In this document: positions 14,725 to 32,350 of the stretch, in pieces
Layout: every line of letters begins with the position of its first letter
Position numbering within the stretch: position 1 is the stretch's first letter
Origin: a virus
Direction: 5' to 3' (one strand)
Virus record (IMG/VR): IMGVR_UViG_3300033153_002359
Location: 1 to 44,461 of that record
DNA: 44,461 bases
Made by a program: the position numbers and the translations under genes
The notes under the pieces: generated by a model
Database searches by the model: none
What the model was told of the DNA's origin: nothing
The model's input: only the letters and a program-made list of their open reading frames with translations

Positions 14725-14788
14725 ATTTTCCATGATATCAAGAAATCCAGCAGCGGTCATGGAAAGTTTCCCATGTATTTACAATGTT
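14725..14788 (+). repeat. attI-like element, copy 1 (head of array 1)
   Basis: A 64-base sequence repeated perfectly at 19797-19860 and, inverted with a changed middle, at 32285-32350. It contains an inverted repeat (TTTCCATGA / TCATGGAAA) and ends ACAATGTT; the final GTT is the recombination core from which cassette 1 (TTGTAT..) begins. It is not an attC: there is no pairing inverse core. Every array in the genome starts at such a copy, as an attI would. Confidence 0.75.
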
Positions 14789-14800
14789 GTATGGCGTGAA

Positions 14801-15025
14801 TTACATTTGCTGAACAACAACATCATGCCACCCTAGTTTCTGTTCATAAGCCTGTTTCAAAGCCTCTGGTATTTTGTCAATGTTCCCGGACTTAATCTCC
14901 ATTTCAACGGTCTCGGTATTTGCAATAAAAGCACCATCACCACCTAAATCACATGCCTTCATAAAGTCATTAGCTTGTTTGCTAATCGCAGGTTTTAACC
15001 CACCGATAAGATATTTCATTTTCAT
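14801..15025 (-). CDS. Cassette 1 gene, unknown function
   Basis: A 74-residue soluble protein, second gene of cassette 1; its start overlaps the upstream gene by four bases (ATGA). It begins MKMKYLIGGLKPAI and is helical. No family recognised. It is the last gene before the attI-like end, so it would be the most recently gained cassette of array 1 if integration occurs there. Confidence 0.55.
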   Translation of the reverse strand: MKMKYLIGGLKPAISKQANDFMKACDLGGDGAFIANTETVEMEIKSGNIDKIPEALKQAYEQKLGWHDVVVQQM

Positions 15026-15261
15026 TTCAACATCCTCAGAAATGACCTTTTAAATCTTCCAAAATTATATATCGAGGTGGCATTTCTCCAACTAATCCAC
15101 ATATCAACCCCACGACAGTACGAAAACGCAACCCCATACTCTCCCCACTTTCGGTCATCCAAAACAACGGGGAGCCTAATGCAAAACCCAAAACTAGACT
15201 TTGCGAATATTGGTTTAAATTCTAAATAAGTAAAAGTCTCTCCTGCTATCATTCCAATCAT
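15022..15261 (-). CDS. Cassette 1 gene, unknown function
   Basis: A 79-residue basic, aromatic-rich protein, first gene of cassette 1. The ATG lies 24 bases inside the cassette from its attC. Two in-frame ATGs (residues 1 and 4) are possible starts. It has no recognised domain and is coupled to the 74-residue gene. Confidence 0.5.
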   Translation of the reverse strand: MIGMIAGETFTYLEFKPIFAKSSFGFCIRLPVVLDDRKWGEYGVAFSYCRGVDMWISWRNATSIYNFGRFKRSFLRMLK

Positions 15262-15284
15262 GGTATAAAATCCTCGGCACTGTC

Positions 15285-15408
15285 ATACAACAATTCATTC
15301 AACGCTGACCCACGAGAACGTGCGTTTTATTAGTCAAACTGAACTGTCTTTATTTATTCAAAGCCCACACCATGCTGGCTGGTGGGCAGGTTAATTCCGG
15401 CGTTATGT
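15285..15408 (+). repeat. attC-like site A (cassette 1)
   Basis: Inverse core ATACAAC, core GTTATGT. The inner arms pair (TTCAACGCTGACCC against TTAACCTGCCC) once three bases C, G, A on the left arm are left out, like extrahelical bases of integron attC sites. The inverse core is the exact complement of the cassette start GTTGTAT at 14786. Confidence 0.85.
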
Positions 15409-15550
15409 GTAAAATAAAAAAGACGGTACTTGCATTGCAACAAGTCTATGCAAACCACCTAGTAGCCACCTACGGGGGATAGCTTTTCCCCTATCTTAGT
15501 GTTTTTCAGGGTTCTCCGAACTAATCCGGCCACCGCCAAACTTTTATGTA

Positions 15551-15769
15551 TTACTTAATTTCAAGTTGTCGTCCATGTCCAGTGTCGTGTGGGTGTTTAA
15601 CTTGGAGTGGTTCGTAAGATACACACGCCACAACATTATCATTACCCACACCGTCGCCCCATACCAATATTTTGCCGGGGCATGTTGGAAAGTCTAGGCA
15701 ACAGCTATCACACAAATGTAAATCGCTACTGGTATCAAAATCTTCAATTCTCATATGTTTTTGCGCCAT
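15551..15769 (-). CDS. Cassette 2 gene, zinc-finger-like protein
   Basis: A 72-residue protein with CDSCC and a further cysteine pair (C at about 29 and 49) plus GNDNVVACVSYEP, a small zinc-ribbon pattern seen in phage accessory proteins. The ATG is only six bases from the attC core with no ribosome site; translation could be coupled to a 26-codon GTG frame in attC B that has AAGGAGG before it. Bases 15409-15550 downstream hold no convincing gene. Confidence 0.55.
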   Translation of the reverse strand: MAQKHMRIEDFDTSSDLHLCDSCCLDFPTCPGKILVWGDGVGNDNVVACVSYEPLQVKHPHDTGHGRQLEIK

Positions 15770-15774
15770 AAATC

Positions 15775-15900
15775 ACATAACAATGCGTTCAACGCCGATC
15801 CGCTCAACGTGCGATTTTTGGGCGTGTGCACTGCCTCCTTAGTTTTAGTTAATATTACGTGCCAAACTGGTTGGCGGTCGGGTTAACTTTAGCGTTAGGT
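15775..15900 (+). repeat. attC-like site B (cassette 2)
   Basis: Inverse core ACATAAC, core GTTAGGT. Arms TTCAACGCCGATCCGC and TTAACCCGACCGC pair except for three extra left-arm bases. The eight-base CACATAAC complements the cassette 2 start GTTATGTG (15402). The layout closely follows the class 1 aadA1 attC (AACAAT-x-CGTTCAA ... TTAACT-x-x-AGCGTTAG). Confidence 0.87.
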
Positions 15901-16041
15901 GTAGTCCCAGTCTTTCTTTAATAATTTATCAACCTCATTAACAGAGTATTCTAAAGTTGCCCCGACAGCGAAGTACCACCCTGTAAAGAATCCCACAGCA
16001 AACACAACAATAGCCGCACACAGCAAAATGAATATAAACAT
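15895..16041 (-). CDS. Cassette 3 small membrane protein
   Basis: A 48-residue protein: MFIFILLCAAIVVFAVGFFTGWYFAV start forms one membrane helix, followed by a charged C-tail. The TAA stop is made by the recombination core itself (complement of GTTAGGT), so the reading frame ends exactly at the cassette boundary. Second gene of cassette 3. Confidence 0.6.
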   Translation of the reverse strand: MFIFILLCAAIVVFAVGFFTGWYFAVGATLEYSVNEVDKLLKKDWDYT

Positions 16042-16062
16042 AGTCTCACCATTGTAAGTGGT

Positions 16063-16278
16063 TCATGTTTCGCTGACAACCTCAGCCCATGGTAACGCCT
16101 TGTCTCCGTATTCTACTGAATGAGCGTCTAAATATGTAACAACCGCCATCAGTAAAGAATTAAAAACAGCAACGTCAAACTCCCTTGTTCTCACACAGTT
16201 ATATACAGCCTGTGTTGTCTCCATACACACAGTTGGTGGCGTTAGATTACTACCTAAAGTTATAACATTATCTGCCAT
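16063..16278 (-). CDS. Cassette 3 gene, unknown function
   Basis: A 71-residue protein read from ATG 16278 (MADNVITL); a GTG at 16284 inside the core would add two residues. The core sequence GTTAGGTG supplies an AGGTG ribosome-site-like motif. Helical, with two cysteines; unrecognised family. Confidence 0.55.
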   Translation of the reverse strand: MADNVITLGSNLTPPTVCMETTQAVYNCVRTREFDVAVFNSLLMAVVTYLDAHSVEYGDKALPWAEVVSET

Positions 16279-16282
16279 GGAC

Positions 16283-16402
16283 ACCTAACAATCTCATAGA
16301 AATGACGCCAAACACACGCCTTTTCTTATCAATCGTTCTCCGAGTTTAATTTATTTTATCCAAGCTCCAGTTGGCTTGGCGCATCTCATTAAAGCGTTAT
16401 GT
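16283..16402 (+). repeat. attC-like site C (cassette 3)
   Basis: Inverse core ACCTAAC, core GTTATGT. ACACCTAAC is a nine-base exact complement of the cassette start GTTAGGTGT. Arms contain GAAATGACGCC and GAGATGCGCC, a subfamily also seen at sites N and Q. Confidence 0.83.
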
Positions 16403-16403
16403 G

Positions 16404-16781
16404 TCAAACTTGCCACTTTGCTATCTCTTGAGCCGTGCGCTTAGTTTGCTCATGCTCCTCACCGTACCCTGACAGTTGTTTATTAAAAAATTCGATATCC
16501 TTGTCAGCTCTGAGTAAGGCATCTCGGTAATAATCTTCCACCCAACTGTGATCTAAAACGCTCATACATTGACTCGTTCCATTTTCAAGCGGATTTTTTT
16601 CTATTGGGCTTACAATGCAATCAATATCAAGACCTCTATCTTTTGCTAAACGATGTACTCTTTTGGCTTCGGCATTATTTGTAAATAAAACCCGATCGCC
16701 ATTTTTCAAATTCTCAATCATTGAGTTGGTTCTTCCAGAGCATCGTGATGATTGAAAATAAATATTTGTTACTGCTTTCAT
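16404..16781 (-). CDS. Cassette 4 gene, possible nucleotide-binding protein
   Basis: A 125-residue protein from ATG 16781 (MKAVTNIYF); the open frame continues upstream into attC D. It has SSRCSGRTNSMI near residue 11-22, reminiscent of a P-loop, then GDRVLFTNNAEAKRVHRLA, like a nucleotide-binding fold, and a C-terminal helical region. No full family match recalled. The stop lies at the cassette boundary. Confidence 0.55.
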   Translation of the reverse strand: MKAVTNIYFQSSRCSGRTNSMIENLKNGDRVLFTNNAEAKRVHRLAKDRGLDIDCIVSPIEKNPLENGTSQCMSVLDHSWVEDYYRDALLRADKDIEFFNKQLSGYGEEHEQTKRTAQEIAKWQV

Positions 16782-16815
16782 TGCTTGTCCTATCCCAAAA
16801 AAAGTCAATGAAATC

Positions 16816-16939
16816 ACATAACAAGGCAATAAACCGTGACACGCGAGAACGTGCGTTCTTTTGGCGTTGCCTTGTCCCTCTCAGTTTTAGTTAAAGCACG
16901 CAGTTTATGGTAGGCGTGCAGGTTATCTCAGCGTTAAGC
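16816..16939 (+). repeat. attC-like site D (end of array 1)
   Basis: Inverse core ACATAAC, core GTTAAGC. Left arm ATAAACCGTGACACGC pairs with ATAACCTGCACGC after three extra bases. The inverse core complements the cassette 4 start GTTATGT. The core is followed by phage genes, so this is the attI-distal end of array 1. Confidence 0.84.
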
Positions 16940-17001
16940 TATTACACCCACGCATCAAGTCCATTCTTCATGTTCTTTAATCTTTTTCTTATACAGCACG
17001 A

Positions 17002-17322
17002 TCATTTTATCCCCATATCCTCTAAAATCTCATCAAGAGTAGAGACAATGCGGTAATGTCCTTTGAATGATTGTTCTAATTCGATCTGGCAGGCTTTTTT
17101 CTTGGAGTCCAACACTTTGCCTGTCTTGGCACTTACGCATTCAAGAGACTTAATCTCGAACCAAAACGTCAAGCCTTTATGCCCCACAATGATGTCATCA
17201 TGGTCAAGCTCAACTGACATTCCAAGTTTTCTTAACTGCTTAACGATCTCAGGCTGGTTGGCATCGACCTTCTTCGCGTATCTGTGTTTAGACAATTTCC
17301 AATACTCCCTGTCGGTACGCAT
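17002..17322 (-). CDS. PD-(D/E)XK-like nuclease
   Basis: About 106 residues from ATG 17322 (MRTDREYWK); the longer frame to 17400 has no better start. Core LDHDDIIVGHKGLTFWFEIKS fits the D-x(n)-E-x-K active site of VRR-NUC or resolvase-type nucleases. It overlaps the HNH-type nuclease upstream, as nin-region recombination genes of lambdoid phages do. A role in recombination or branch resolution is inferred. The downstream gap to attC D (16940-17001) has only a 16-codon frame. Confidence 0.6.
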   Translation of the reverse strand: MRTDREYWKLSKHRYAKKVDANQPEIVKQLRKLGMSVELDHDDIIVGHKGLTFWFEIKSLECVSAKTGKVLDSKKKACQIELEQSFKGHYRIVSTLDEILEDMGIK

Positions 17323-17548
17323 CTTCAAGCGTGTCGAGAATATACCGAGTTTGAGGCCATTCTTTTGCGTCTCTATGCAATTCAGAATGACACGACACAC
17401 ACATGGGCATTGTTGCTAAATCGCTTGCCTTGCCACCCATGCTCCCCATTCTGTCAACTGCAATAATATGATGAGGTATGGTTTCAGGATTACCACAATG
17501 GCAACACGATAATGTGCGAACAAATGCAAGATATTTTTTATTTTTCAC
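17288..17548 (-). CDS. YbcO/DUF968-like HNH nuclease
   Basis: About 86 residues from GTG 17548, which overlaps the preceding TGA (GTGA). Cysteine/histidine frame: SCCHCGNP, HHIIAVD, then MCVSCHSELHRD, the zinc and metal-binding signature of small phage HNH nucleases such as YbcO. These sit in nin regions and act in recombination or DNA processing. It lies between a mini zinc protein and a PD-(D/E)XK nuclease in one operon. Confidence 0.65.
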   Translation of the reverse strand: MKNKKYLAFVRTLSCCHCGNPETIPHHIIAVDRMGSMGGKASDLATMPMCVSCHSELHRDAKEWPQTRYILDTLEDAYRQGVLEIV

Positions 17549-17649
17549 GCCCAAACCCCGATAGCATCAGACTTAACTTCTTTCCCGAGACAATCACCCA
17601 TGAAAAGATTATCACCACATTCTCTGAGTTTACAAAGTTTATTTTTCAT
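17545..17649 (-). CDS. Mini protein with cysteines
   Basis: A 34-residue frame with three cysteines (KLCKLREC and GDC). Both ends overlap neighbours by four bases (ATGA upstream, GTGA downstream), the strongest argument that it is translated. It resembles the tiny zinc proteins found between phage recombination genes. Function unknown. Confidence 0.45.
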   Translation of the reverse strand: MKNKLCKLRECGDNLFMGDCLGKEVKSDAIGVWA

Positions 17650-18176
17650 ATTTTATATCCGAGTTCTCTTAATTGAACAAAGTTTACTGCTTGATGGTTG
17701 CAAGTCCACTTAGGGCAACATTTTTCAAACTCACATCTTGCTAGGGCTGCGGATATTTTATCAGCGTGGTATCCTAAACTTGTGTGCTGGTTGTGTAAAT
17801 TTATAAAAGCGCGCCATTTACCCTCACGGCGTACCCACCCTACCCCGACAAAACCAGACTTATTGTCTTTTGGTATTTTCTTCATGTTCTGCATGTTGCA
17901 AGCGTGTGTTACATGCCTAATGTTAGACCACTTATTGCTTTTAGTTTTCTTGTGATCCATTACATATTCAGGGAAATAGCCCTCAACATAAAGATGCGCG
18001 AGTCGATGGGCTAGGTACGTCTTGCCGTCGATGCCGATCTGCCGATACCCCTCCGCGTTTAGACATCCAGCGACTTTGCCAATGTGTACGTTGGACGTTG
18101 GACGCACCAACCATGTAAAAGCACCAGTTTTAGGGTCGTATTTTAGTAAGTCTTTGAGTCTTGCTTGAGTAAGCAT
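17646..18176 (-). CDS. HNH homing endonuclease with AP2-like domain
   Basis: A 176-residue protein. The N-terminus (MLTQARLKDLLKYDPKTGAFTW) is typical of phage HNH endonucleases; the catalytic region is VMDHKK ... HVTHACNMQN around residues 80-105 (H, N, N). An AP2-like DNA-binding segment follows (GFVGVGWVRREGKW ... SLGYHADKISAALAR). It is a clear paralog of the gene at 26426. These free-standing selfish endonucleases spread between phage genomes. It overlaps the mini gene downstream. Confidence 0.85.
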   Translation of the reverse strand: MLTQARLKDLLKYDPKTGAFTWLVRPTSNVHIGKVAGCLNAEGYRQIGIDGKTYLAHRLAHLYVEGYFPEYVMDHKKTKSNKWSNIRHVTHACNMQNMKKIPKDNKSGFVGVGWVRREGKWRAFINLHNQHTSLGYHADKISAALARCEFEKCCPKWTCNHQAVNFVQLRELGYKI

Positions 18177-18212
18177 AATAAACCTCCGTTTAAGGTTTCG
18201 TTAAAGAAGGGA

Positions 18213-18263
18213 GGTGGCAAGCAAGTAACGAGCTTGCGGTTCGGATTCGATGTCCTAGCCACT
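18213..18263 (-). other. Structured three-stem element upstream of HNH gene
   Basis: On the minus strand AGTGGC pairs with GCCAC(C) around a 3-bp hairpin with a seven-base loop (GGA/TCC) and a 6-bp hairpin (GCAAGC/GCTTGC). It lies 36 bases before the HNH start. An element of the same plan but different sequence sits before the HNH remnant (19238-19290), so the structure seems conserved by compensating changes. Confidence 0.4.
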
Positions 18264-18281
18264 CAAAATATTTTAACAAAT

Positions 18282-19197: not shown

Positions 19198-19237
19198 CTT
19201 TGAATCCTCCAAACAGGATAAACGCTTTAATGAATCC

Positions 19238-19338: not shown

Positions 19339-19794
19339 TTACAAATCTTCCAAGGGTTGTTCGTCTGGAAACCGCAAATCGACTCGACCAGAATAATTTT
19401 TCCTCACTCCTTCAAGATAGCGTGTAAATTGCTCAGAACTAAATAATGACGTAACAGGGAAAAATAACATTGCTTCCAGTTTATGCTCGTAAGGGAGTAT
19501 GTCAATATGTCTAGCGCACAGGTCATTGTACTCTTCGTCAACACCACGAATAATGTTCAACCCTATATGCAATTTACATAAACATTTAACCTCTGTTTCG
19601 TGATACTCTTTTTCCTTCTTCGCCACCTCTGAGTACCATGCGTGGCTTATGGCGTTTTGCGGTAATGTTCTGGATTTGACATACTTCTTTATATCGCAGA
19701 CATAATTGCAATCTAGTTCCAGCGTTGCGGTAAGGATAGCGGTAATATTTTCTATTGCCTGGTGGTCACGTATGATAATTCGCTGTTTTTTCAT
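19339..19794 (-). CDS. ninB: NinB-like recombination protein
   Basis: A 151-residue protein. The segment KSRTLPQNAISHAWYSEVAKK (residues 41-61) is the characteristic NinB pattern (R-S/T-L-x-QNA ... W). NinB binds single-stranded DNA and helps phage recombination. The ATG lies two bases after the attI-like copy 2 on the transcribed strand, so array 2 feeds straight into this gene. The other members of the downstream cluster (HNH, YbcO-like, PD-(D/E)XK) also fit a nin-like module. Confidence 0.72.
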   Translation of the reverse strand: MKKQRIIIRDHQAIENITAILTATLELDCNYVCDIKKYVKSRTLPQNAISHAWYSEVAKKEKEYHETEVKCLCKLHIGLNIIRGVDEEYNDLCARHIDILPYEHKLEAMLFFPVTSLFSSEQFTRYLEGVRKNYSGRVDLRFPDEQPLEDL

Positions 19795-19796
19795 AT

Positions 19797-19860
19797 ATTT
19801 TCCATGATATCAAGAAATCCAGCAGCGGTCATGGAAAGTTTCCCATGTATTTACAATGTT
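19797..19860 (+). repeat. attI-like element, copy 2 (head of array 2)
   Basis: Identical over 64 bases to copy 1. It ends ACAATGTT, and the cassette 5 start follows (TTAGGTG). It separates the ninB start from the cassette array, so the second array is inserted between two phage operon segments. Confidence 0.76.
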
Positions 19861-20017
19861 AGGTGTCTAAAGCATTATTAAGGCGTTTCGCTTCTGCCAC
19901 CGCCCTTGCTTTGTTTTTGTGCCGAGAAACCATCTTTGATATGGTTATCCCATTCTGGTTTAACAAGGCCACGCCCCATCCATTTATGTACATTGCTTCG
20001 TATCGCTCCACAATCAC
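19859..20017 (-). CDS. Cassette 5 gene, small basic protein
   Basis: A 52-residue frame from GTG 20017, overlapping the upstream TGA by four bases. Sequence VERYEAMYINGWGVALLNQNGI followed by a basic Ala-rich helix. TAA is formed by the cassette boundary core. A competing longer frame (19878-20075) on the same strand lacks this fit at both ends, so I prefer this one. Confidence 0.5.
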   Translation of the reverse strand: MIVERYEAMYINGWGVALLNQNGITISKMVSRHKNKARAVAEAKRLNNALDT

Positions 20018-20187
20018 AACTCCTCAAAAACGAAATTATCATGGCCACATTTTTCGCACATAATGTTGTCAGCATTTACAGCACGATTATCAAGCCATGA
20101 GTCTTGCAGAGAATATTCATGGTATTGTATTTCTCCGCACTCTTCACATTCAAATTGTATTGCCCTTTCAGCTTCAACAGTCATCAT
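20014..20187 (-). CDS. Cassette 5 zinc-ribbon protein
   Basis: About 57 residues from the tandem ATGs at 20187/20184 (MMTVEAERAIQF). CEECGEIQYH and CEKCGHDNF make a four-cysteine zinc ribbon. The core GTTAGGTGAG supplies AGGTGAG as ribosome site. The open frame extends upstream into attC E (CLNLLLGE). Confidence 0.58.
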   Translation of the reverse strand: MMTVEAERAIQFECEECGEIQYHEYSLQDSWLDNRAVNADNIMCEKCGHDNFVFEEL

Positions 20188-20190: not shown

Positions 20191-20311
20191 ACCTAACAAT
20201 AAATTCAAGCAGACCTGCTACTCGCGCTATTTATCGTGCTATTTGTTAATTATTTAACCCAATAAGCTTATGTGCCATGGGTTGGCAGGCAGCTTAATTA
20301 GGGCGTTATAT
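20191..20311 (+). repeat. attC-like site E (cassette 5)
   Basis: Inverse core ACCTAAC, core GTTATAT. CACCTAAC complements the cassette 5 start GTTAGGTG exactly. Arms TTCAAGCAGACCTGC and TTAAGCTGCCTGC pair with extra left-arm bases. Confidence 0.84.
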
Positions 20312-20587
20312 GCCAGAAGGTTCATTTGGCAAACACCACCATAAATTTCCATTTTTAATAGCTGTTTCAATATTCCAGCCATTAATTTTAAAATCTAAAG
20401 AAAAGTGGTATTTATTAAAAACAAAAGACCCATAAGAATCGTACCCGCCAAATAAATAATATTCATCAGCTACTTTTGGGGGTTCAAGTTCAAACCGTTT
20501 CCAATCACATATAACAAAACGTTCAACGCCGACCTGCGAGAACGTGCTTTCTGTCGGGGCTGTTTCTGTTCCTTTGTTTTCGGTCAT
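20306..20587 (-). CDS. Cassette 6 gene whose N-terminus is encoded in attC F
   Basis: A 93-residue protein. The ATG at 20587 has AAGGAAAG upstream and lies in the loop of attC F; about 26 residues (to VERFVICDW) come from the attC right up to and across the inverse core. No in-frame start exists within the cassette proper. The remainder is aromatic-rich (YYLFGGYDSYGSF). Its TAA is made by the core GTTATAT. Function unknown. Confidence 0.6.
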   Translation of the reverse strand: MTENKGTETAPTESTFSQVGVERFVICDWKRFELEPPKVADEYYLFGGYDSYGSFVFNKYHFSLDFKINGWNIETAIKNGNLWWCLPNEPSGI

Positions 20588-20634
20588 ATTCTTTCCTTAT
20601 CTGGTAGGCAGGCGGGTTAACTCAAGCGTTATGC
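20509..20634 (+). repeat. attC-like site F (cassette 6)
   Basis: Inverse core ATATAAC, core GTTATGC. Left arm TTCAACGCCGACCTGC pairs with TTAACCCGCCTGC after removing C, G and A. CATATAAC complements the cassette start GTTATATG. The site contains a start codon and ribosome site for the minus-strand gene. Confidence 0.86.
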
Positions 20635-20835
20635 CCCAAATTCTCTAATTCGTAAATCAAGGACAGTTTCATCAACTTCTATCCAATAAAAAAAGTCATT
20701 CGGTGTAACAATGGCTAATCTTTTTGCCTTTTTGGCCTTATTATCACCATGCTTGGAAACTGCTGTTAAATATTTTTCATGGAGCTTAGCGTAAGGGCTA
20801 CCAGCGATACCACCCCAATTTATCTTATTTGCCAT
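20629..20835 (-). CDS. Cassette 7 gene, small basic protein
   Basis: About 68 residues from ATG 20835 (MANKINWGG), with GGAGG a little far upstream; an alternative ATG at 20859 is supplied by the recombination core GTTATG. Basic middle (KHGDNKAKKAKR). TAA formed by the boundary core. Family not recognised. Confidence 0.55.
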   Translation of the reverse strand: MANKINWGGIAGSPYAKLHEKYLTAVSKHGDNKAKKAKRLAIVTPNDFFYWIEVDETVLDLRIREFGA

Positions 20836-20855: not shown

Positions 20856-20975
20856 GCATAACCAGTCATTACAAGGGAATAAAACCTCGTGCTTTCCGTT
20901 GCTCTGGCTAGTTTTGTGTTTAATTTAATCTTGATAAATCCAGTTGGTTTTATCCCCTGAATTTAAGCGTTATGT
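20856..20975 (+). repeat. attC-like site G (cassette 7)
   Basis: Inverse core GCATAAC, core GTTATGT. Arms TTACAAGGGAATAAAACC and TTCAGGGGATAAAACC pair with two extra left-arm bases. GGCATAAC complements the cassette start GTTATGCC. Belongs with site H to an ATAAAACC subfamily. Confidence 0.82.
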
Positions 20976-21266
20976 GGTAATTAACTTCACCAGTGTGTCT
21001 CTGTATGCAGTTAGGTAAAACTTTTGATCTTTAATTAAATCCCCATTTTCCATCTCAATGGTAAGCTCTGTTTTATCATACCCAGCAGGAACAAGCTGAG
21101 AAGCAACTGAGATTAGTTTGTTAAATTTAATTGGATCTATAAACTTATCAATATCCCCATTGTCATCATCACCCATCTCTTCATTTATCAATTCAGATTC
21201 AGACCAGTGGACAAACACTTTTTTTATTACCATGCCATTAGGCATTGTAATCTTTTCATCACTCAT
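20970..21266 (-). CDS. Cassette 8 gene, acidic protein of unknown function
   Basis: About 98 residues from ATG 21266 (MSDEKITM); the core-derived ATG at 21278 is in the same frame. Acidic centre (EEMGDDDNGDIDKF) and mixed alpha/beta ending. TAA lies on the cassette boundary. The frame stays open back through attC H. Confidence 0.55.
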   Translation of the reverse strand: MSDEKITMPNGMVIKKVFVHWSESELINEEMGDDDNGDIDKFIDPIKFNKLISVASQLVPAGYDKTELTIEMENGDLIKDQKFYLTAYRDTLVKLITT

Positions 21267-21274
21267 AGTTTTCC

Positions 21275-21395
21275 ACATAACAATACGTTCCAGCGGAATA
21301 AAACCTCGCGCTTCCTTTCGTATTGCCTCCTTTTTAGTTTAATTTATCTTTGCTTAGTTCAAGTTGGTTTTATCCTCTGATCTAAGTCGTTAGCT
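21275..21395 (+). repeat. attC-like site H (cassette 8)
   Basis: Inverse core ACATAAC, core GTTAGCT; CCACATAAC complements the cassette 8 start GTTATGTGG. Arms share GGAATAAAACC / GGATAAAACC. Carries AAGGAGG on the minus strand. Confidence 0.82.
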
Positions 21396-21583
21396 TACTC
21401 ACCCAAAACAGAATAAAGCTCTGCCAATTTAGGGCTTATTTTGTAAGTTGCCTTTAGCGAATACTGTCCTCTCCCTGTCGTTGTGTCTATTGCTATAAAA
21501 GCGTCTTCAAGCTCTTTTCGCAAAACATATCGTTCATCGTCATCTAAAACAATTTGTTGTGTCTTCTTAGTTATTTTAATCAT
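21395..21583 (-). CDS. Cassette 9 gene, small unknown protein
   Basis: A 62-residue protein from ATG 21583 (MIKITKKTQQ), preceded by GAGGAG placed at the end of the upstream gene. Hydrophilic alpha/beta. It is the second gene of cassette 9, and its stop lies five bases inside the boundary. Confidence 0.55.
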   Translation of the reverse strand: MIKITKKTQQIVLDDDERYVLRKELEDAFIAIDTTTGRGQYSLKATYKISPKLAELYSVLGE

Positions 21584-21584
21584 G

Positions 21585-21791
21585 CTAAAATTCCTCCTCA
21601 TAAATACAGCTTTTACATTGAGCCAATCTATTCCCCATCCCCTTGTCGATTAGAGTCAGTGGGTACTCACCACACTCGGGGCAAACTAATTCTGGAGATA
21701 CTGGTTTGGTGGTTGCAATTACTTTTTTAGCTCTATCACAACCCATCATTCTATCACAAAACTCCACTAATTTTATACCTTCCGCACTCAT
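21585..21791 (-). CDS. Cassette 9 zinc-ribbon protein
   Basis: A 68-residue protein: VCPECGEYP and QCKSC near residues 36-63 form a C2-C2 zinc ribbon; CDRMMGC earlier adds two cysteines. First gene of cassette 9, starting 23 bases from the attC I inverse core. Probably nucleic-acid or protein binding. Confidence 0.58.
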   Translation of the reverse strand: MSAEGIKLVEFCDRMMGCDRAKKVIATTKPVSPELVCPECGEYPLTLIDKGMGNRLAQCKSCIYEEEF

Positions 21792-21814: not shown

Positions 21815-21939
21815 CGCTAACAAGGTCACTCAACGCCGACCCACGAGCTCGTCCGATTTTTAGGAGCTCCAACGAGCTCACAGTTTGTTTTAGTTTCTGA
21901 GCTCCATCCTTGGTGGGCGGGTTAGCTCAGGCGTTGGGT
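21815..21939 (+). repeat. attC-like site I (cassette 9)
   Basis: Inverse core CGCTAAC, core GTTGGGT. Left arm ACTCAACGCCGACCCAC pairs with CTAACCCGCCCAC after extra bases. GCTAAC complements the cassette start GTTAGC. On the minus strand a 25-codon GTG frame starts in its loop (21881 to 21804). Confidence 0.83.
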
Positions 21940-21947: not shown

Positions 21948-22253
21948 TTACCAACTTGCATGGACTTCATGAACTGACTCAATTCCATCATATTCATCAA
22001 ACTCAAAATCAATACCGTCTGGTATTTCAACTATCCGCAATTCGGCCAAAGAAGCTGTGCTTTCTTTAAGCCCAACTTTCTCAACTGCTGCGATCAATCG
22101 TTCGTCATAACGGTAGGCCATATAATCATTGCTCTCTATTCCCATGTCTTCATTTTCCATGAATCCATGACCGTCCCAATCAATTCCAAGTTCTTTAAAT
22201 ACAGCCTTGGTTAATCCAAAGCCCCCGAAACATTTATTAAGTAAAATCTTCAT
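21948..22253 (-). CDS. Cassette 10 gene, widespread phage hypothetical family
   Basis: A 101-residue protein from ATG 22253 (MKILLNKCFGGFGLT) with GGAGG nine bases upstream. It belongs to a common bacterial and phage family starting K-I-x-I/L-N-x-CYGGFGLS and ending VEIPD ... EYDGIE ... W; all parts are present. The function of the family is not known to me. This is a good example of a phage-type gene carried as a cassette. Confidence 0.72.
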   Translation of the reverse strand: MKILLNKCFGGFGLTKAVFKELGIDWDGHGFMENEDMGIESNDYMAYRYDERLIAAVEKVGLKESTASLAELRIVEIPDGIDFEFDEYDGIESVHEVHASW

Positions 22254-22277: not shown

Positions 22278-22400
22278 TCCCAACAAGTCAATTAAGCGCG
22301 ACTTGCGAGCAGCTGCGATTTTTCGGTGGTTTATCAGCCACCTTTATTCTGTTTTAGCTGCTTGCCATTCTGGTTGGCGTGAAATTAAATTGAGTATTGG
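22278..22400 (+). repeat. attC-like site J, degenerate right core
   Basis: Inverse core TCCCAAC matches the cassette start GTTGGGT in six of seven positions. The right arm is decayed: the expected GTTRRRY core reads GTATTGG, and the end of the next gene lies in it. Cassettes 10 and 11 are probably fused in practice. Confidence 0.6.
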
Positions 22401-22741
22401 CAGAACATAAACTTGTCTGCCTCAACCCTAACGCAAATTGTCCCGGCGAAACTGTCTCCGCTCATGCCTCCGTCAGTTGTTTGGTTTATGTAAACATGGG
22501 TCATGTTTTTAAAGTCTTCGTCAAGCAATGTCCCAACTGGCATATCAACAAAACAAAAGTCATAGTTCCCACCTTCTTCATCAAGGTAGCCCTCAAGCTC
22601 TTCTACAAAGGCGTCACCCTTTAATTCTTTGATTTTGTCAATTACTTCTTGCCTGTTATTCGCTTGGGAATCATAAAACTCGTCCATAGCCTCAAACGCT
22701 TCCTGAGCTTCTTGGTCTGTCACTTGGTCACATCTTTCCAT
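22385..22741 (-). CDS. Cassette 11 gene, acidic protein of unknown function
   Basis: A 118-residue acidic protein with GAGGG before its ATG. Segments EAMDEFYDSQAN and LEGYLDEEGGNYDFCFVDMPVG; no recognised family. Its stop at 22385 lies inside the decayed right half of attC J, so the gene end was fused to the site. Confidence 0.55.
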   Translation of the reverse strand: MERCDQVTDQEAQEAFEAMDEFYDSQANNRQEVIDKIKELKGDAFVEELEGYLDEEGGNYDFCFVDMPVGTLLDEDFKNMTHVYINQTTDGGMSGDSFAGTICVRVEADKFMFCQYSI

Positions 22742-22779: not shown

Positions 22780-22914
22780 ACCCAACAATTCGTTCAAGCA
22801 GACCTCAAACACGCGACATTTCTCGAAATTGCTGTGGTTATTAGTTTATTGTAATTTCTTCTTTTTTGCCTACTTTCCAGTGTGTCTGAGGCGGCTTAAC
22901 TTTCAACGTTCTAT
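22780..22914 (+). repeat. attC-like site K (cassette 11)
   Basis: Inverse core ACCCAAC, core GTTCTAT. Left arm TTCAAGCAGACCTCAAACAC pairs with TTAAGCCGCCTCAGACAC, two substitutions and two extra bases. Longest of the sites at about 135 bases. Confidence 0.83.
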
Positions 22915-23126
22915 TCATTGAGATTCGATATTAAATCTTCTAATAATCCATGATCAAAAATTAACTCAAGGGCAATTAAGTGGGCAATGTGGCCTTTTGT
23001 TTCTTTTCGGCCTTCCACCCCACCTTCAATCTTTCCAACCATCGGCTGGGTCATACCCAACAAGTCAGCCATTTGTTTTTGAGTAACGCCAAGCTGTTGC
23101 CTGGCCTCTTTGATTGTGGAAGCCAC
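22911..23126 (-). CDS. Cassette 12 XRE-family repressor
   Basis: A 71-residue protein from GTG 23126. HTH at residues 3-35 (STIKEARQQLGVTQKQMADLLGMTQPMVGKIE), a compact Cro/CI-type fold. Its TAG is made by the boundary core GTTCTAT. It is the second gene of a two-gene unit behind a strong promoter with a palindromic operator (23438-23449), so autoregulation is likely. Confidence 0.78.
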   Translation of the reverse strand: MASTIKEARQQLGVTQKQMADLLGMTQPMVGKIEGGVEGRKETKGHIAHLIALELIFDHGLLEDLISNLNE

Positions 23127-23128
23127 TA

Positions 23129-23374
23129 TTAAGCATCAATCCAAAAATAGTAGAGATCCGTTGAAATGTCATTTGATCCATGATTAGCCATAATCTCAGC
23201 ACAAGCCATAAAATCATCATCTGAAATGGTATCTGTATCAATATCATTATTTGCACAATACAAGCACAAGTTGTCAAAATAGTATCCAATGTCTCTATTT
23301 CTGTTGTGCAATTTAATTGCTGAGTCATTGTCTTGATTGTTTGAGAAGTTTAATTTTTCGCTTAAAATTTTCAT
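23129..23374 (-). CDS. Cassette 12 gene paired with XRE repressor
   Basis: An 81-residue acidic protein with GGAGAAAG upstream. Sequence rich in Asn/Asp, with DTDTISDDDFMACAEIM and a C-terminal LYYFWIDA. Two bases separate it from the repressor start. The pairing of a small protein with an XRE regulator recalls toxin-antitoxin modules, but no toxin fold is recognised. Confidence 0.58.
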   Translation of the reverse strand: MKILSEKLNFSNNQDNDSAIKLHNRNRDIGYYFDNLCLYCANNDIDTDTISDDDFMACAEIMANHGSNDISTDLYYFWIDA

Positions 23375-23496: not shown

Positions 23497-23540
23497 ATAG
23501 AACAAATCACTCAACCCGACGCAAACCACGCGCGTTCAGT
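23497..23540 (+). repeat. attC-like site L, truncated (end of array 2)
   Basis: Inverse core ATAGAAC complements the cassette 12 start GTTCTAT. Only the left arm (CTCAACCCGACGC) remains before phage gene 23546-24013 begins; the right half and core are missing. Cassette 12 would therefore be immobile. Confidence 0.62.
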
Positions 23541-26230: not shown

Positions 26231-26433
26231 TTTGCCAACCTCCGCTGTATCGGGGACTCGCATCGGGCAATCTCACAAATATCGTTATTACGCCAATACA
26301 CTGGATTCATCGGAAGTGGATACGCTCTATTTGATAATTTCGTATAAAAATACAATCTATCAAACTCATACATCTCAACAGTATGATGGATTAGATAACC
26401 GTCGTCTGTTAACGTTGCGTTTAGATTACACAT
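26227..26433 (-). CDS. Small early protein of unknown function
   Basis: A 68-residue protein. Overlaps both neighbours (HNH gene by eight bases, membrane gene by four), supporting translation. Begins MCNLNATLTDDGYLIHH and includes YEFDRLYFYTKLSN. Unrecognised. Confidence 0.5.
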   Translation of the reverse strand: MCNLNATLTDDGYLIHHTVEMYEFDRLYFYTKLSNRAYPLPMNPVYWRNNDICEIARCESPIQRRLAK

Positions 26434-26959
26434 TATACCCTAACCCCCTAAGTTTTACGAAGTTAACGCCTTGGTGATTACAAATCCAATCAGGGCAACA
26501 TGCCTCATAATAGCATCTTGCTAATGCAGCTGATATTGTGTCTGAGTGGTAGCCAAGGTGGATATACTTCCTGCCGATCATGATGTGAGTACGATACTTG
26601 CCATGGCCCCTATGCCACGAAACCCCGATAAAACCCGAAGTGTTACAGCTGTTAAGCTTTTGATTCTGCATGTTGCAGCTCTGAGTCACGTGTCGCAACT
26701 TCTCCCACCGATTATCGTCTTTATCACCGTGTTTGTGATCCACTTGATATTCTGGGAAGTAGCCTTCAATGTAGAGAAAGGCTAACCGATGTGCCCTGTA
26801 TTGCTTGCCGTCTACGCGGATCTGACGATATCCATGTGGGTCTAGACAACCAGCCTCATCACCAACTTCGACACGGGGACTGTTGGCCACCAACCATGTA
26901 AAAATGCCAGTTTCAGGGTCGTATTTAAGTAATTCTTTTAGTCGTTTTTGCGTTAGCAC
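26426..26959 (-). CDS. HNH homing endonuclease with AP2-like domain
   Basis: A 177-residue protein, paralog of 17646-18176: MLTQKRLKELLKYDPETGIFTW start, QVDHKHGDKDDNRWEKLRH with SCNMQN catalytic part, then GFIGVSWHRGHGKYR and SLG-type AP2 strand region (HLGYHSDTISAALAR). The end NHQGVNFVKLRGLGYNV matches its paralog. It sits in the early operon, overlapping its neighbour by eight bases. Confidence 0.85.
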   Translation of the reverse strand: MLTQKRLKELLKYDPETGIFTWLVANSPRVEVGDEAGCLDPHGYRQIRVDGKQYRAHRLAFLYIEGYFPEYQVDHKHGDKDDNRWEKLRHVTQSCNMQNQKLNSCNTSGFIGVSWHRGHGKYRTHIMIGRKYIHLGYHSDTISAALARCYYEACCPDWICNHQGVNFVKLRGLGYNV

Positions 26960-27580: not shown

Positions 27581-28220
27581 GAAGCAATTCACTTTTTTTG
27601 CTTCCTATTTAGATGCTGTTGAAGATTTGCCAGTGGAGCAGAGGGGGATATTTTTTGATGCTGTAATAATGTATTCTCTTCGTGACATTGATCCTGAGTT
27701 TGACCATGACAATATTGTTGCAAAGGCTGTCTTTACAGCAATAAAGCCAGTTCTTGACCAAAGTAAGTTTAGAGCAAAGGCAGGACAAAAGGGCGGAGCT
27801 AGTAAAGCAAAACCTAAGCAAACCGGAAGCAAAAAGAAAGCAAAACCTAAGCAAACCGGAAGCTATAGGAAAGGAAAGGAAAGGAAAGGAGTGGAAGGGA
27901 GTGGAGTAGGAAAGGACAAAACAAAGGCCATCCGGCCTGATAATTTCACAGAACAAGAATTTGACGATCTTCTTTCTCACAGAAAAGCAATGAAAGCACC
28001 TCTTACCAAATTGGCTTTGGCTGGTCTTGTTTCTCAGTTTGAAAAATCAGGCTTGCCAGTGGCTGAGTGTATTGAGAAAATGGCAAATAGGGGATGGCGC
28101 GGATTTGAGGCTGAATGGGTTAAAAAAAATGATAAGCCTAATGGTGATAAGAAAACCTTTGCCCAAATAAGAAGCGAAAACAATAAACAGGCTTGCAGAG
28201 AATTTGCGGAGGATAGTTAA
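27573..28220 (+). CDS. DUF6291-like putative replication organizer
   Basis: A 215-residue protein. The N-terminal 75 residues match the phage family with FFDAVIMYS, then AVFTAIKPVLDQSKFRAKAGQKGG. A Lys/Gln linker follows that contains a tandem duplicated unit AKPKQTGS, typical of this family. The C-terminal part may load or bind helicase. It is followed directly by a DUF6475-like gene, as in many phage replication modules. Confidence 0.7.
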   Translation: MNRKQFTFFASYLDAVEDLPVEQRGIFFDAVIMYSLRDIDPEFDHDNIVAKAVFTAIKPVLDQSKFRAKAGQKGGASKAKPKQTGSKKKAKPKQTGSYRKGKERKGVEGSGVGKDKTKAIRPDNFTEQEFDDLLSHRKAMKAPLTKLALAGLVSQFEKSGLPVAECIEKMANRGWRGFEAEWVKKNDKPNGDKKTFAQIRSENNKQACREFAEDS

Positions 28221-29047: not shown

Positions 29048-29166
29048 TTGTAACGCCCGCAATGAGATGCCCTAAACAACGCAGTTTAGGATAAGATAAA
29101 TTAAACAAGCAAGCGATCAGAAAGGAGTGAATTGGGTTTAGGGTCATTTCTATAAGATTGTTATGC
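29048..29166 (-). repeat. attC-like site Q (far end of array 3)
   Basis: Minus-strand orientation: inverse core GCATAAC, core GTTACAA. Arms share ATAGAAATGACCCTAAAC and ATGAGATGCCCTAAAC with two extra bases. It adjoins the last replication gene, hence the attI-distal end of the array. Confidence 0.78.
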
Positions 29167-29185
29167 TGGGTTATAGGTATGGATT

Positions 29186-29449
29186 ATGGGAATACAATCA
29201 ACCATTGGTATAGATCGAGATGATGCTATTTGCAGGATAAGGCTAATTGGTTGTCTGGTAAGTGAAAAAGCGTACAGAAGACTTGAAGATGCTTGTTTTG
29301 AGCCAAATATGAGAATAGAAACATTTGTAGACGATGGACTGGATTTTAGTCTATCTGGCTTGGATGAATGGACTTGCACTATGTTAGAAAACAAAATGGG
29401 TGAGCCATTCTATAGATTTTCAATGTATGACAACTACAATGTAAGCTAA
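29186..29449 (+). CDS. Cassette 17 gene, unknown function
   Basis: An 87-residue protein (MGIQSTIGIDRDDAICR). Its TAA is formed by the core AGCTAAC at the cassette boundary. Alpha/beta soluble protein with three cysteines. No recognised family. Confidence 0.55.
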   Translation: MGIQSTIGIDRDDAICRIRLIGCLVSEKAYRRLEDACFEPNMRIETFVDDGLDFSLSGLDEWTCTMLENKMGEPFYRFSMYDNYNVS

Positions 29450-29577
29450 CGCATTAGTTCACCTGCCCCAAGGGAATGAGGAGTAAATTATGGAAACAGG
29501 ATTTGAGGATGAAACAGACTTTATTGAAACCAAAAAAAGTGCGCCCCTTGGGGTCAGCGTGAAACGCCTTGTTATGT
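29444..29577 (-). repeat. attC-like site P (cassette 17/16 junction)
   Basis: Minus strand: inverse core ACATAAC, core GTTAGCT. Left arm TTTCACGCTGACCCC pairs perfectly with TTCACCTGCCCC after removal of T, G and A. The start and first 28 residues of the cassette 16 gene lie inside it. Confidence 0.83.
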
Positions 29578-29879
29578 GGTTTTTGGGCAATATAGTTATT
29601 TGGATACTTGCTTATTTTTGGCTGGCAAACGGCAATGAATACGCAGAGAATTACAGCATGTTTATTGTTTGGATTCACTTCTTGTGTTCGCTGGCAGTTT
29701 TTAGCAAGGAAACTAGAAAGAAGCTACAAGATAAAGGCCCAAGCGTGAATATGAATTTTAACTTAGTCGTAGATTGTATTTATGGCTTTGTGCTGGCTAC
29801 TTTTGGGTTTTATCTGCTTGCAGGACTGTATATTGTTGGTAGTAAATTCCAAAATGAAGCCTACACGATGGACACCTAA
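29490..29879 (+). CDS. Cassette 16 multi-pass membrane protein
   Basis: A 129-residue protein with about four membrane helices (VMWFLGNIVIWILAYFWL; FIVWIHFLCSLA; YGFVLATFGFYLLAGLYIVG). GAGGAG precedes the ATG at 29490. The first 28 residues are encoded by attC P, up to the inverse core in RLVMW. The end reads MDT with TAA made by the core ACCTAAC. Possibly a membrane-active accessory such as superinfection exclusion, by analogy only. Confidence 0.6.
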   Translation: METGFEDETDFIETKKSAPLGVSVKRLVMWFLGNIVIWILAYFWLANGNEYAENYSMFIVWIHFLCSLAVFSKETRKKLQDKGPSVNMNFNLVVDCIYGFVLATFGFYLLAGLYIVGSKFQNEAYTMDT

Positions 29880-29997
29880 CGCTTGAGGTAAGCCGCCCGC
29901 CCACAAATAAACTAAGGAGTTTCCAAAATGGAAATAACTGAAAGTAACACCAATAAATCGCGCGTGCTCGCGGGTCTGCTTGACCGATTTGTTCTAT
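29874..29997 (-). repeat. attC-like site O (cassette 15)
   Basis: Minus strand: inverse core ATAGAAC, core GTTAGGT; GCTTGAGGTAAGCCGCCCGC arm pairs with GTCAAGCAGACCCGC-type arm. CCATAGAAC complements the cassette 15 start core (30755-30761). Closely similar to site M. Confidence 0.85.
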
Positions 29998-30068
29998 GGA
30001 AACAGCAGTTTCAACGGGCATTAATTAAGTGTTGTACCTATGACCTTGAGGTTTATCATGGGGGTTGA
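29928..30068 (+). CDS. attC-encoded leader peptide before methyltransferase (cassette 15)
   Basis: A 46-codon frame starting in the loop of attC O with AAGGAG seven bases upstream. It crosses the arm and core of the attC (NKSRVLAGLLDRFVLW) and ends overlapping the methyltransferase ATG at 30058. A closely related frame of 38 codons exists in attC M. Either a real small peptide or a translational coupling leader. Confidence 0.45.
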   Translation: MEITESNTNKSRVLAGLLDRFVLWKQQFQRALIKCCTYDLEVYHGG

Positions 30069-30711
30069 ATTGTTTAATATGGACTGTATGGAGCTTATGG
30101 CTAACACTGCCGATAATGCTTTTGATCTGGCTATTGTTGATCCACCGTATGGTATTGGCGAATGTGGGAAAACAAATAAGAGCCGTGGAAAGCTTGCTGT
30201 TGCAAAAGATTATAAACCATTTCACGGTGAAGATTTAGAGCCACCAACAGCGGAATATATAAAAGAGCTGCAGCGGGTTAGTGTGAACCAAATAATTTGG
30301 GGTGCTAACCACTTTATGCAAAGCATTAATCTTGGTTCTAGTTGCTGGATTGTGTGGGACAAGGACAATGGGGCAAATGACTTTGCTGATTGTGAGCTTG
30401 CGTATACCAGTTTTAAAACCGCTGTAAGAATGTTTAGGTTTACTTGGAATGGCATGATTCAGGGGAACATGAAGAACAAAGAGCAACGGATACACCCCAC
30501 TCAAAAACCTGTTGCCTTGTACAAATGGCTTCTCCATAATTATGCAAAGAAAGGTGATTCTATTTTAGACACCCACCTTGGAAGCGGATCAAGCGCGATA
30601 GCAGCGCATTATTTTGGCTGTGACTTCTTTGGTTGTGAACTTGACAAGGACTATTTTGAAGCAACACAAAAGCGATTTAAAAAGGAAACAGCTCAGTTAT
30701 CTTTATTTTAA
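30058..30711 (+). CDS. DNA methyltransferase (cassette 15)
   Basis: A 217-residue enzyme from ATG 30058, which has GAGG six bases upstream. Motif IV DPPYG at residues 28-32 precedes HPTQKP and the SAM-binding motif DTHLGSGSSAIA near the C-terminus: the beta-type order of N6-adenine or N4-cytosine methyltransferases. Likely an orphan enzyme that shields phage DNA from host restriction. Its flanks are nearly identical to those of the other methyltransferase cassette. Confidence 0.85.
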   Translation: MGVELFNMDCMELMANTADNAFDLAIVDPPYGIGECGKTNKSRGKLAVAKDYKPFHGEDLEPPTAEYIKELQRVSVNQIIWGANHFMQSINLGSSCWIVWDKDNGANDFADCELAYTSFKTAVRMFRFTWNGMIQGNMKNKEQRIHPTQKPVALYKWLLHNYAKKGDSILDTHLGSGSSAIAAHYFGCDFFGCELDKDYFEATQKRFKKETAQLSLF

Positions 30712-30754
30712 AATGACATAGAGCTGGCCCGAACCAACTAGGCAAGACGTTTCC

Positions 30755-30875
30755 ATAGAACGCCCGGAATGAGATGCACCAAACGAATAAACTGTTTGGT
30801 AAGATTAAATTAAACACTGGAGGATGATACGAGGAGTGGCCGTAGTTTGGTGTCATTTCTAGCGTATTGTTAGCC
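30755..30875 (-). repeat. attC-like site N (cassette 14)
   Basis: Minus strand: inverse core GGCTAAC, core GTTCTAT; arms CTAGAAATGACACCAAAC and ATGAGATGCACCAAAC. GGCTAAC complements the cassette 14 start core (31353-31359). Loop holds GGAGG and a 12-codon frame. Confidence 0.83.
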
Positions 30876-30898
30876 ACGATGATGGCGAGGAGGTAAAA

Positions 30899-31210
30899 AT
30901 GGAATGCGAAAAAGAATGTAATAATTTTGTGATTTGCAGATTTAGCGATGAGGGAAAACAAAAAAAACATTGTAATTTCTTTCTCCCTAAGAATGATAAC
31001 AATGATCAAATTGCAGAAGATTTATACATTAAGAATTATAAAGGGTTCTCTGCGACTTCTGTTGTTGACGCTCATAAAAAGGGATTCATTTCAGGCGTTA
31101 ATTCGGCAAACAGAAGAGCAGCAGAGTTGCAAGAGAAACTTGAACAACTCAAGCAACACGCTGTTTGTGATTGTGAAGGTTGCAGAGCTATAGACAATAT
31201 TGAACTGTAA
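30899..31210 (+). CDS. Cassette 14 gene, coiled-coil protein with cysteines
   Basis: A 103-residue protein with AGGAGG eight bases upstream. CEKECNNFVIC near the N-terminus, a helix with coiled-coil character (NSANRRAAELQEKLEQLKQH) and CDCEGC at the end. A zinc site is likely. Family not recognised. Confidence 0.58.
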   Translation: MECEKECNNFVICRFSDEGKQKKHCNFFLPKNDNNDQIAEDLYIKNYKGFSATSVVDAHKKGFISGVNSANRRAAELQEKLEQLKQHAVCDCEGCRAIDNIEL

Positions 31211-31220
31211 TTGTTTTTTT

Positions 31221-31344
31221 ATAGCGTACTACTCATTGCAGGTGCAGAGTTCAAAAACATACCTACCTAGGCCGTTCGATTCGGTGGAGGATAAACTGGT
31301 GAAGTGAAGGTGGGGAAGATTCAGGTTCGAGTCCTGGATGCTAT
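31221..31344 (+). tRNA. tRNA-like element, oversized (cassette 14)
   Basis: Pairing ends ATAGCGT and ATGCTAT form a 7-bp acceptor-like stem. ACTC/GAGT with a 12-base loop resembles a D-arm, and TCAGG-TTCGAGT-CCTGG is a good T-arm. The middle is about 70 bases, with a 7-bp stem CCTACCT/AGGTGGG and no clear anticodon arm; no CCA is encoded. At 124 bases it is too long for an ordinary tRNA; an insertion, a decayed tRNA or another structured RNA are possible. Confidence 0.35.
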
Positions 31345-31352
31345 ATTTTAAA

Positions 31353-31475
31353 GGCTAACGCTTGAGGTAAGCTGCCCGCCCACAAATAAACTAGAAACTA
31401 AAACGGAGTAAAAGACTATGATAAACCACAATAAATCGCACGTTCTCGCGGGTCTGCTTGACCGACTTGTTCTAT
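31353..31475 (-). repeat. attC-like site M (cassette 13)
   Basis: Minus strand: inverse core ATAGAAC, core GTTAGCC. Arms GTCAAGCAGACCCGC and GTAAGCTGCCCGC pair with extra C and A. CCATAGAAC is a nine-base complement of the cassette 13 start at 32281-32287. Confidence 0.86.
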
Positions 31476-31534
31476 GGAAACAGGCTTTTCAACGGGCATT
31501 AATTAAGTTGCCGGAGGCTTGCCAATGCAGTTAA
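31418..31534 (+). CDS. attC-encoded leader peptide before methyltransferase (cassette 13)
   Basis: A 38-codon frame with ACGGAG upstream, starting in the attC M loop. NKSHVLAGLLDRLVLWKQ and FQRALIK closely match the peptide in attC O. It ends ten bases past the methyltransferase ATG, so the two are translationally overlapped. Confidence 0.45.
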   Translation: MINHNKSHVLAGLLDRLVLWKQAFQRALIKLPEACQCS

Positions 31535-32250
31535 TTAATGGCGATTGCCTTGAGGAAATGAAGAATATACCAGACGGTAGTATTGATATGGTGCTTGCTG
31601 ATCCGCCATACGGGACAACGGCTTGTAAGTGGGATAGTATTATTGATCTTGATAAAATGTGGGTTGAATTGAAACGACTTATTAAGCCTAACGGCGCAAT
31701 AGTAATGACAGCAAGCCAACCTTTCACCACATCGTTAATATCAAGCAATATGAATATGTTTAAATATTGCTGGGTTTGGGACAAAGTTAGGGGTACTGGT
31801 TTTCAGGTGGCAAAATACAGACCAATGATGAGGACTGAGGACGTTGTTGTCTTTGGAACTGGTCGAGTTAATTACTACCCGCAGATGATAAAAAGAGATA
31901 AGGTCAAGAAAAGCAAATGCTATTCTAGCTCTGACAGCAACCCTCTAAAATACAATGATGGAGTAGAAAGGGTTTATACTCACAAGAATCCTGTGAATAT
32001 AATCGTTTCTAGTAACGCCTCACAAAAAGGGAAACTACACCCAACCCAAAAGACAATTGGCCTTATGGAGTATCTTGTAAAAACCTACACAAACGAAGGG
32101 GACAATGTTCTTGATTTTTGCGCTGGCAGCTTTACCACTGGTGAGGCGTGTCTTAATTTGAACCGTGAATTTATAGGCATTGAGAAAGACAAAACCTATT
32201 TTGATATTGGCACGGAAAGACTTAATAGGGTTTTAAATGAACGGCGGTAA
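31525..32250 (+). CDS. DNA methyltransferase (cassette 13)
   Basis: A 241-residue enzyme from ATG 31525 with GGAGG upstream. DPPYG at residues 26-30, HPTQKT and DFCAGSFTTGEA near the C-terminus: beta-type N6A/N4C DNA methyltransferase. It differs strongly from the cassette 15 enzyme in the middle (target recognition) region, so the two may protect different sites. First cassette next to the attI-like element of array 3. Confidence 0.86.
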   Translation: MQLINGDCLEEMKNIPDGSIDMVLADPPYGTTACKWDSIIDLDKMWVELKRLIKPNGAIVMTASQPFTTSLISSNMNMFKYCWVWDKVRGTGFQVAKYRPMMRTEDVVVFGTGRVNYYPQMIKRDKVKKSKCYSSSDSNPLKYNDGVERVYTHKNPVNIIVSSNASQKGKLHPTQKTIGLMEYLVKTYTNEGDNVLDFCAGSFTTGEACLNLNREFIGIEKDKTYFDIGTERLNRVLNERR

Positions 32251-32284
32251 TTGCCCGAACCAACTTGGCAAGACGTTTCCATAG

Positions 32285-32350
32285 AACATTGTAAATACAT
32301 GGGAAACTTTCCACATATTACCAATCACTGTGCTTGATATCATGGAAAAT
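32285..32350 (-). repeat. attI-like element, copy 3 (head of array 3)
   Basis: Reverse complement matches copies 1 and 2 over both ends (TTTTCCATGATATCAAG and GGAAAGTTTCCCATGTATTT with ACAATGTT), but about 19 bases of the middle differ. It ends at the GTT where cassette 13 begins on the minus strand. It lies directly before the late promoter. Confidence 0.75.

Follow-up and report, generated by a model that had tools for sequence, protein, structure and literature searches.

The genome of a tailed phage, IMG/VR record IMGVR_UViG_3300033153_002359 (44,461 bases, analysed over the whole record and referred to here as the window), carries three arrays of small gene cassettes bounded by attC sites of the integron type and encodes no integron integrase (IntI). 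Several independent sequence-based tests support the assignment of these arrays as integron-type attC cassette arrays in a phage without IntI. Clusters of attC sites in phages, and their recombination with IntI1, are already known (Qi et al. 2023, PMC9892861), and the present phage is a variant of this published type, with three arrays in one genome, attI-like repeats at the array heads and the inversion of every cassette gene relative to its attC. We consider it likely that this is an integrase-less phage with attI-like docking sites of its own, into which cassettes would be inserted by attI x attC recombination, with IntI provided by the host.

A structure scan employing AAC/GTT cores, a stem score and the confinement of extra bases to a single side identified 15 sites across the window, all but one within the three arrays, against a mean of 0.45 in 20 dinucleotide shuffles. 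A position-specific scoring matrix (PSSM) derived from the attCs of Vibrio, Shewanella and class 1 integrons scored 10 array sites above the best of 10 shuffles, and the top seven matches of a covariance model built from 12 Vibrio/Shewanella attCs are window attCs, all on the predicted strand, with weak E-values (7e-4 to 0.6). The reciprocal test is the stronger: a covariance model built only from 15 window sites (the window-site model) recovers class 1 attCs at E-values of 1e-10 to 1e-6, most Vibrio attCs (E down to 4e-6) and also Shewanella attCs, on the right strand, and picks up a 16th, degenerate window site (22278-22402, 20.7 bits). The sites have R''/R' cores, paired L arms and extrahelical bases on the L'' side. 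An earlier sequence-only reading had proposed 17 such sites resembling class 1 and Vibrio attCs; the resemblance is borne out by both covariance models, and its coordinates and its division into arrays of 4, 8 and 5 cassettes stand, but the total is 16 attC sites plus one truncated site, since the 17th (23497-23530) is a left half. The same reading had noted that cassette starts complement their own inverse core, and this also holds: the mean exact match is 6.6 nt, compared with 2.8 nt for swapped pairs (permutation p<1e-5), and reaches 12 nt in both methyltransferase cassettes, such that the ends of a cassette regenerate its own R box in the circular form. Searches with the sites gave no family match in Rfam and no blastn match in phages or in plasmids.

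The polarity of the sites is given by their extra unpaired bases, which are one-sided in 14/14 scored array sites, on the left in arrays 1 and 2 and on the right in array 3. The same rule reproduces the known array direction in control loci (Vibrio phage, Shewanella M16-3 and the class 1 integron in P1), where the polarity call agrees with the intI/attI position and the gene direction of known integrons. The PSSM from control attCs selects window sites on the assigned strand, as does the bacterial covariance model in 7/7 matches with E<1. In array 2 the sites decay with distance from the attI-like site, the distal ones being degenerate or truncated, as would follow if new cassettes came in at attI and the distal ones were the oldest. 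The attC sites, with the methods that detect them, are as follows.

15285-15408, plus strand: attC of cassette 1 (structure scan, PSSM, window-site model)
15775-15900, plus strand: attC of cassette 2 (structure scan, PSSM, window-site model)
16283-16402, plus strand: attC of cassette 3 (structure scan, PSSM, both covariance models)
16816-16939, plus strand: attC of cassette 4, end of array 1 (structure scan, PSSM, both covariance models)
20191-20311, plus strand: attC of cassette 5 (structure scan, PSSM, both covariance models)
20509-20634, plus strand: attC of cassette 6, gene start within (structure scan, window-site model)
20856-20975, plus strand: attC of cassette 7 (structure scan, PSSM, both covariance models)
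21275-21395, plus strand: attC of cassette 8 (structure scan, PSSM, both covariance models)
21815-21939, plus strand: attC of cassette 9 (structure scan, window-site model)
22278-22402, plus strand: attC of cassette 10, degenerate R' (window-site model; PSSM, left half)
22780-22914, plus strand: attC of cassette 11 (structure scan, window-site model)
23497-23530, plus strand: attC of cassette 12, truncated left half (8-nt own-core match to the cassette 12 start; right half absent)
31353-31475, minus strand: attC of cassette 13, with Shine-Dalgarno motif and ATG of a leader peptide in gene sense (structure scan, PSSM, window-site model)
30754-30877, minus strand: attC of cassette 14 (window-site model)
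29874-29997, minus strand: attC of cassette 15, with Shine-Dalgarno motif and ATG of a leader peptide in gene sense (structure scan, PSSM, window-site model)
29444-29577, minus strand: attC of cassette 16, gene start within (structure scan, PSSM, both covariance models)
29048-29166, minus strand: attC of cassette 17, end of array 3 (structure scan, both covariance models)

Each array starts exactly at one of three copies of a ~67-bp repeat, the final G|TT of which is the array's first crossover point; neither this repeat nor the orientation of the genes had been noticed in the sequence-only reading.

14722-14788, plus strand: attI-like site 1, head of array 1; 67 nt, 66/67 identical to site 2; its G|TT is the exact start of cassette 1
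19794-19860, plus strand: attI-like site 2, head of array 2; 66/67 identical to site 1
~32285-32352, minus strand: attI-like site 3, head of array 3; shares identical blocks of 18-19 nt and 29 nt with site 1

The repeat ends in ATTTACAATG|TT, resembling the class 1 end CCTAAAACAAAG|TT. It also resembles ACTAATAAAATG|TT of the Shewanella attI (as given in PMC9892861). In all three copies the cassettes are on one side and the repeat body, the accessory part, is on the other, which is the layout of known integrons; the body contains TTTCC(C)ATG-type motifs, both direct and inverted, that are reminiscent of the accessory binding sites of attI1. Site 3 retains ~48 nt in its two identical blocks while the ~20 nt in between have diverged, which suggests selection on the blocks as constrained binding sites. 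In viral contigs a 28-mer, a 19-mer and a gapped pattern from the repeat found no match; an exact 18-mer search of genome contigs, which diverged host attIs would escape, gave only five chance matches, none adjoining an integron, so that no copy was found beside an intI; and distant blastn gave only weak chance matches in phages and none in plasmids.

In 17/17 cassettes the best coding open reading frame (ORF) is antiparallel to the attC polarity and points toward the attI-like site, so that none has the canonical arrangement of a gene parallel to its attC with its stop nearby. For two N6/N4 methyltransferases, a helix-turn-helix gene and a phrog_16527 gene, homology proves the coding strand. 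In a single Vibrio array taken as baseline, 3/18 genes are inverted (Fisher p=3e-7). Many cassette stop codons are TAA formed by the core TTA, and start codons lie close to R''. The genes of cassettes 6 and 16 start within attC, and cassettes 13 and 15 each have a leader peptide that begins in attC after a Shine-Dalgarno motif and whose end overlaps the gene start. Strong Shine-Dalgarno motifs are present in attC loops on the gene strand in 7/16 cases, on the other strand in 1/16 and on the same strand of Vibrio loops in 1/15, a distribution that is suggestive of attC loops as carriers of translation starts; the broader proposal that every attC is a translation starter was only partly supported (excess at 7/16, p=0.02). 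The cassette genes are listed below.

14801-15261, minus strand: cassette 1, two overlapping small ORFs, antiparallel to attC
15551-15769, minus strand: cassette 2, ORF with weak coding signal
16063-16278, minus strand: cassette 3, ORF
16404-16721, minus strand: cassette 4, ORF
20014-20187, minus strand: cassette 5, ORF with CxxC pairs; zinc-ribbon matches weak only
20306-20587, minus strand: cassette 6, ORF with start codon inside its own attC and TAA stop from the core TTA
20629-20835, minus strand: cassette 7, ORF with stop in the core
20970-21278, minus strand: cassette 8, ORF starting at R'', stop in the core
21395-21791, minus strand: cassette 9, two ORFs
21948-22253, minus strand: cassette 10, ORF of the phrog_16527 family (E 4e-18), with relatives in phages of Vibrio and Edwardsiella
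22385-22741, minus strand: cassette 11, ORF
22911-23374, minus strand: cassette 12, HTH_3 gene at 22911-23126 (E 2e-8) and a second ORF at 23129-23374
31525-32250, plus strand: cassette 13, N6/N4 DNA methyltransferase (PF01555, E 4e-28)
30899-31210, plus strand: cassette 14, ORF
30058-30711, plus strand: cassette 15, N6/N4 DNA methyltransferase (PF01555, E 6e-18)
29490-29879, plus strand: cassette 16, ORF with start codon inside its own attC
29186-29449, plus strand: cassette 17, ORF

Cassettes 13 and 15 are nearly identical at both ends (29874-30030 with 31355-31508, and 30727-30761 with 32253-32287). Because these shared ends enclose different methyltransferases, replacement of the gene inside a cassette shell by ordinary recombination may also have occurred. 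The nearest relative of one of the methyltransferases (77% identical) belongs to an ordinary phage operon in which no attC is present.

The record carries the class 'linear' in IMG/VR, yet it opens and closes with the same 114 bases (1-114 and 44348-44461), which fall within a single tape-measure-like reading frame; the phage genome is therefore complete, a closed circular assembly of ~44.35 kb. It encodes a terminase, a portal and a major head protein, and its terminase and portal have distant kin (<40% identity) in siphovirus-type phages of gammaproteobacteria and others. Neither a tyrosine recombinase (PF00589) nor an integron integrase (TIGR02249) was matched in this complete genome, confirming the absence of IntI that the sequence-only reading had reported; the intI in cis of a complete integron is missing, and each of the three clusters, with at least two attCs and no intI, corresponds to a CALIN (cluster of attC sites lacking an integron integrase). 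The phage is probably virulent.

Arrays 1 and 2 are in a leftward operon and array 3 is in a rightward operon before the terminase, with the flanking operon genes running the same way. In the mechanism that we propose, three phage-owned 67-bp docking sites within or at the ends of phage operons would take up circular cassettes, inserted at G|TT through attI x attC recombination, and the arrays of 4, 8 and 5 would have arisen in this way. Since none is encoded in the phage genome, IntI would act in trans from the integron of the infected bacterium, and a host-supplied integrase would be the sole remaining option that fits. Because the cassette genes face attI, each newcomer would come last in the cassette cluster, at its downstream end, and be transcribed with the phage operon, from phage promoters, making the integron promoter Pc unnecessary. 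Expression at these positions would be restricted to cassettes whose genes are inverted, so that selection would filter the cassette pool. In some cassettes translation of the gene, or of a leader peptide coupled to it, would begin from a ribosome-binding site and start codon supplied by the attC loop.

Comparison with known systems bears on whether the arrays could instead be ordinary CALINs, that is, pieces of a host chromosomal integron acquired by illegitimate or homologous recombination with no active docking system. Such an origin has been reported for Vibrio phages and for the Shewanella prophage vB_SspM_M16-3, in which the host attI heads the CALIN (PMC9892861). M16-3, with an attI at an array head inside a phage and more than one array, is similar to the present phage with its attI-like sites, but differs in its own IntI, its host-type attI and the canonical direction of its annotated genes. 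We regard this origin as unlikely for the window, where three separate arrays each have their own attI-like copy, the arrays are placed between genes of same-direction operons, and every gene is inverted, whereas the host-derived arrays of M16-3 and the Vibrio phage are canonical or mostly so; inversion throughout also speaks against a host array having simply been sampled. Class 1 integrons and the chromosomal integrons of Vibrio share with the window the sequence and structure family of attC and the G|TT cores, and have an attI at the array head where the window has its attI-like repeat, but they have intI in cis and genes that point away from attI.

If the polarity had been misread, the cassettes would be canonical with unusual attCs recombined on the other strand, and the 67-bp repeat would be a 3' boundary element rather than an attI. 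The attC arms are indeed nearly symmetric, and the genes would then have their usual orientation. Given the one-sided extra bases, which are as in control attCs, the strand favoured by the PSSM and the bacterial models, and a repeat at the expected attI position ending in an attI-like G|TT, we consider such a misreading improbable. A reading of the repeated sites as hairpins that regulate or terminate transcription in a modular phage operon, as their position between small genes and some ribosome-binding-site content might imply, is hardly credible in view of the lack of an Rfam match, the cassette-specific own-core complementarity and the reciprocal matches to class 1 and Vibrio attCs, the latter two being unexpected for terminators.

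Several observations weigh against a phage with its own docking sites. The searches turned up neither a host nor a bacterial genome (exact 18-mer scan, blind to diverged attIs) or plasmid (distant blastn) carrying this attI, and the collections searched contain no close relative with cassette gain or loss and no empty-site relative. With attC arms that are near-palindromic, the polarity depends on the extra bases and the model scores; the baseline for inverted genes is one Vibrio array only; cassette 2 gives a weak coding signal; and the Shine-Dalgarno excess is modest (3.0 of the 16 loops expected from base-shuffled loops). Nor did the searches bear out an exchange of cassettes with bacterial integrons, put forward in the sequence-only reading: they gave only chance matches to the attI-like repeat in genome contigs and no close attCs in plasmids.

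The phage CALINs described previously, in Pseudoalteromonas phage H101, Tetrasphaera phage TJE1 and ctTUS972 (Qi et al. 2023, PMC9892861), resemble the present arrays as attC clusters without IntI in tailed phages, with methyltransferase cassettes, and the attC sites of H101 and TJE1 recombine with IntI1, for H101 sites on the bottom strand (Qi et al. 2023, PMC9892861). The present genome differs in its three arrays, each with an attI-like site, and in its 17 cassettes, all inverted. Gene direction relative to attC in phage arrays is not discussed in the main text of PMC9892861. By the polarity rule used for the window, in H101 (L109, 25919-27987) four attCs are on the plus strand and the neighbouring annotated genes on the minus strand, an inverted orientation that is absent from the published description of H101. 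ctTUS972 is also inverted (attCs on the minus strand, annotated genes on the plus strand), and its methyltransferase frame opens on a TTG inside attC; the TJE1 array is canonical. A GC-rich IMG/VR contig with terminase genes (L100, 6343-14497) has attCs of both polarities, each facing opposite-strand genes, including one site (77 bits) that closely resembles those of the window; an attI was not identified in this contig. The TerL relatives L001 and L104-L106 (59-72% identity) have no attC in the parts of their sequence covered, and a search with the major head protein found no relatives.

An AT-rich phage contig with endolysin and serine recombinase genes (L073, 3640-8420) has a cassette-like array of approximately nine units with complementary ends (e.g. 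TTAGTGGCA...TGCCACTAA), in which several genes, including a methyltransferase, start inside a ~120-bp site. Elsewhere in the window, the genes at 17646-18176 and 26426-26959 are diverged copies (~70% DNA identity), the second matching HNH_3, and are probable homing-endonuclease paralogues. A short tandem-like repeat, AAGCAAACCGGAAGC, is present at 27804-27869 inside an ORF of the rightward operon.

The arrays may represent a distinct phage integron platform, integrase-less and with operon-embedded attI sites, served by a separate pool of inverted, phage-adapted cassettes that moves between phages via host IntI; we put this forward tentatively, as a possibility somewhat short of an even chance. 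The cassettes would be phage-adapted in that attC supplies the translation start and in carrying genes such as methyltransferases, and the 77%-identical methyltransferase relative in an attC-free operon makes the origin of cassettes testable. If correct, phages would use their own docking sites together with a bacterial integron enzyme to gather small genes, which would explain an orderly gain of accessory genes by virulent phages, and the DNA methyltransferases collected could protect phage DNA from restriction. There would then be a second cassette pool, overlooked or misread by surveys of bacterial integrons because its genes face the opposite way.

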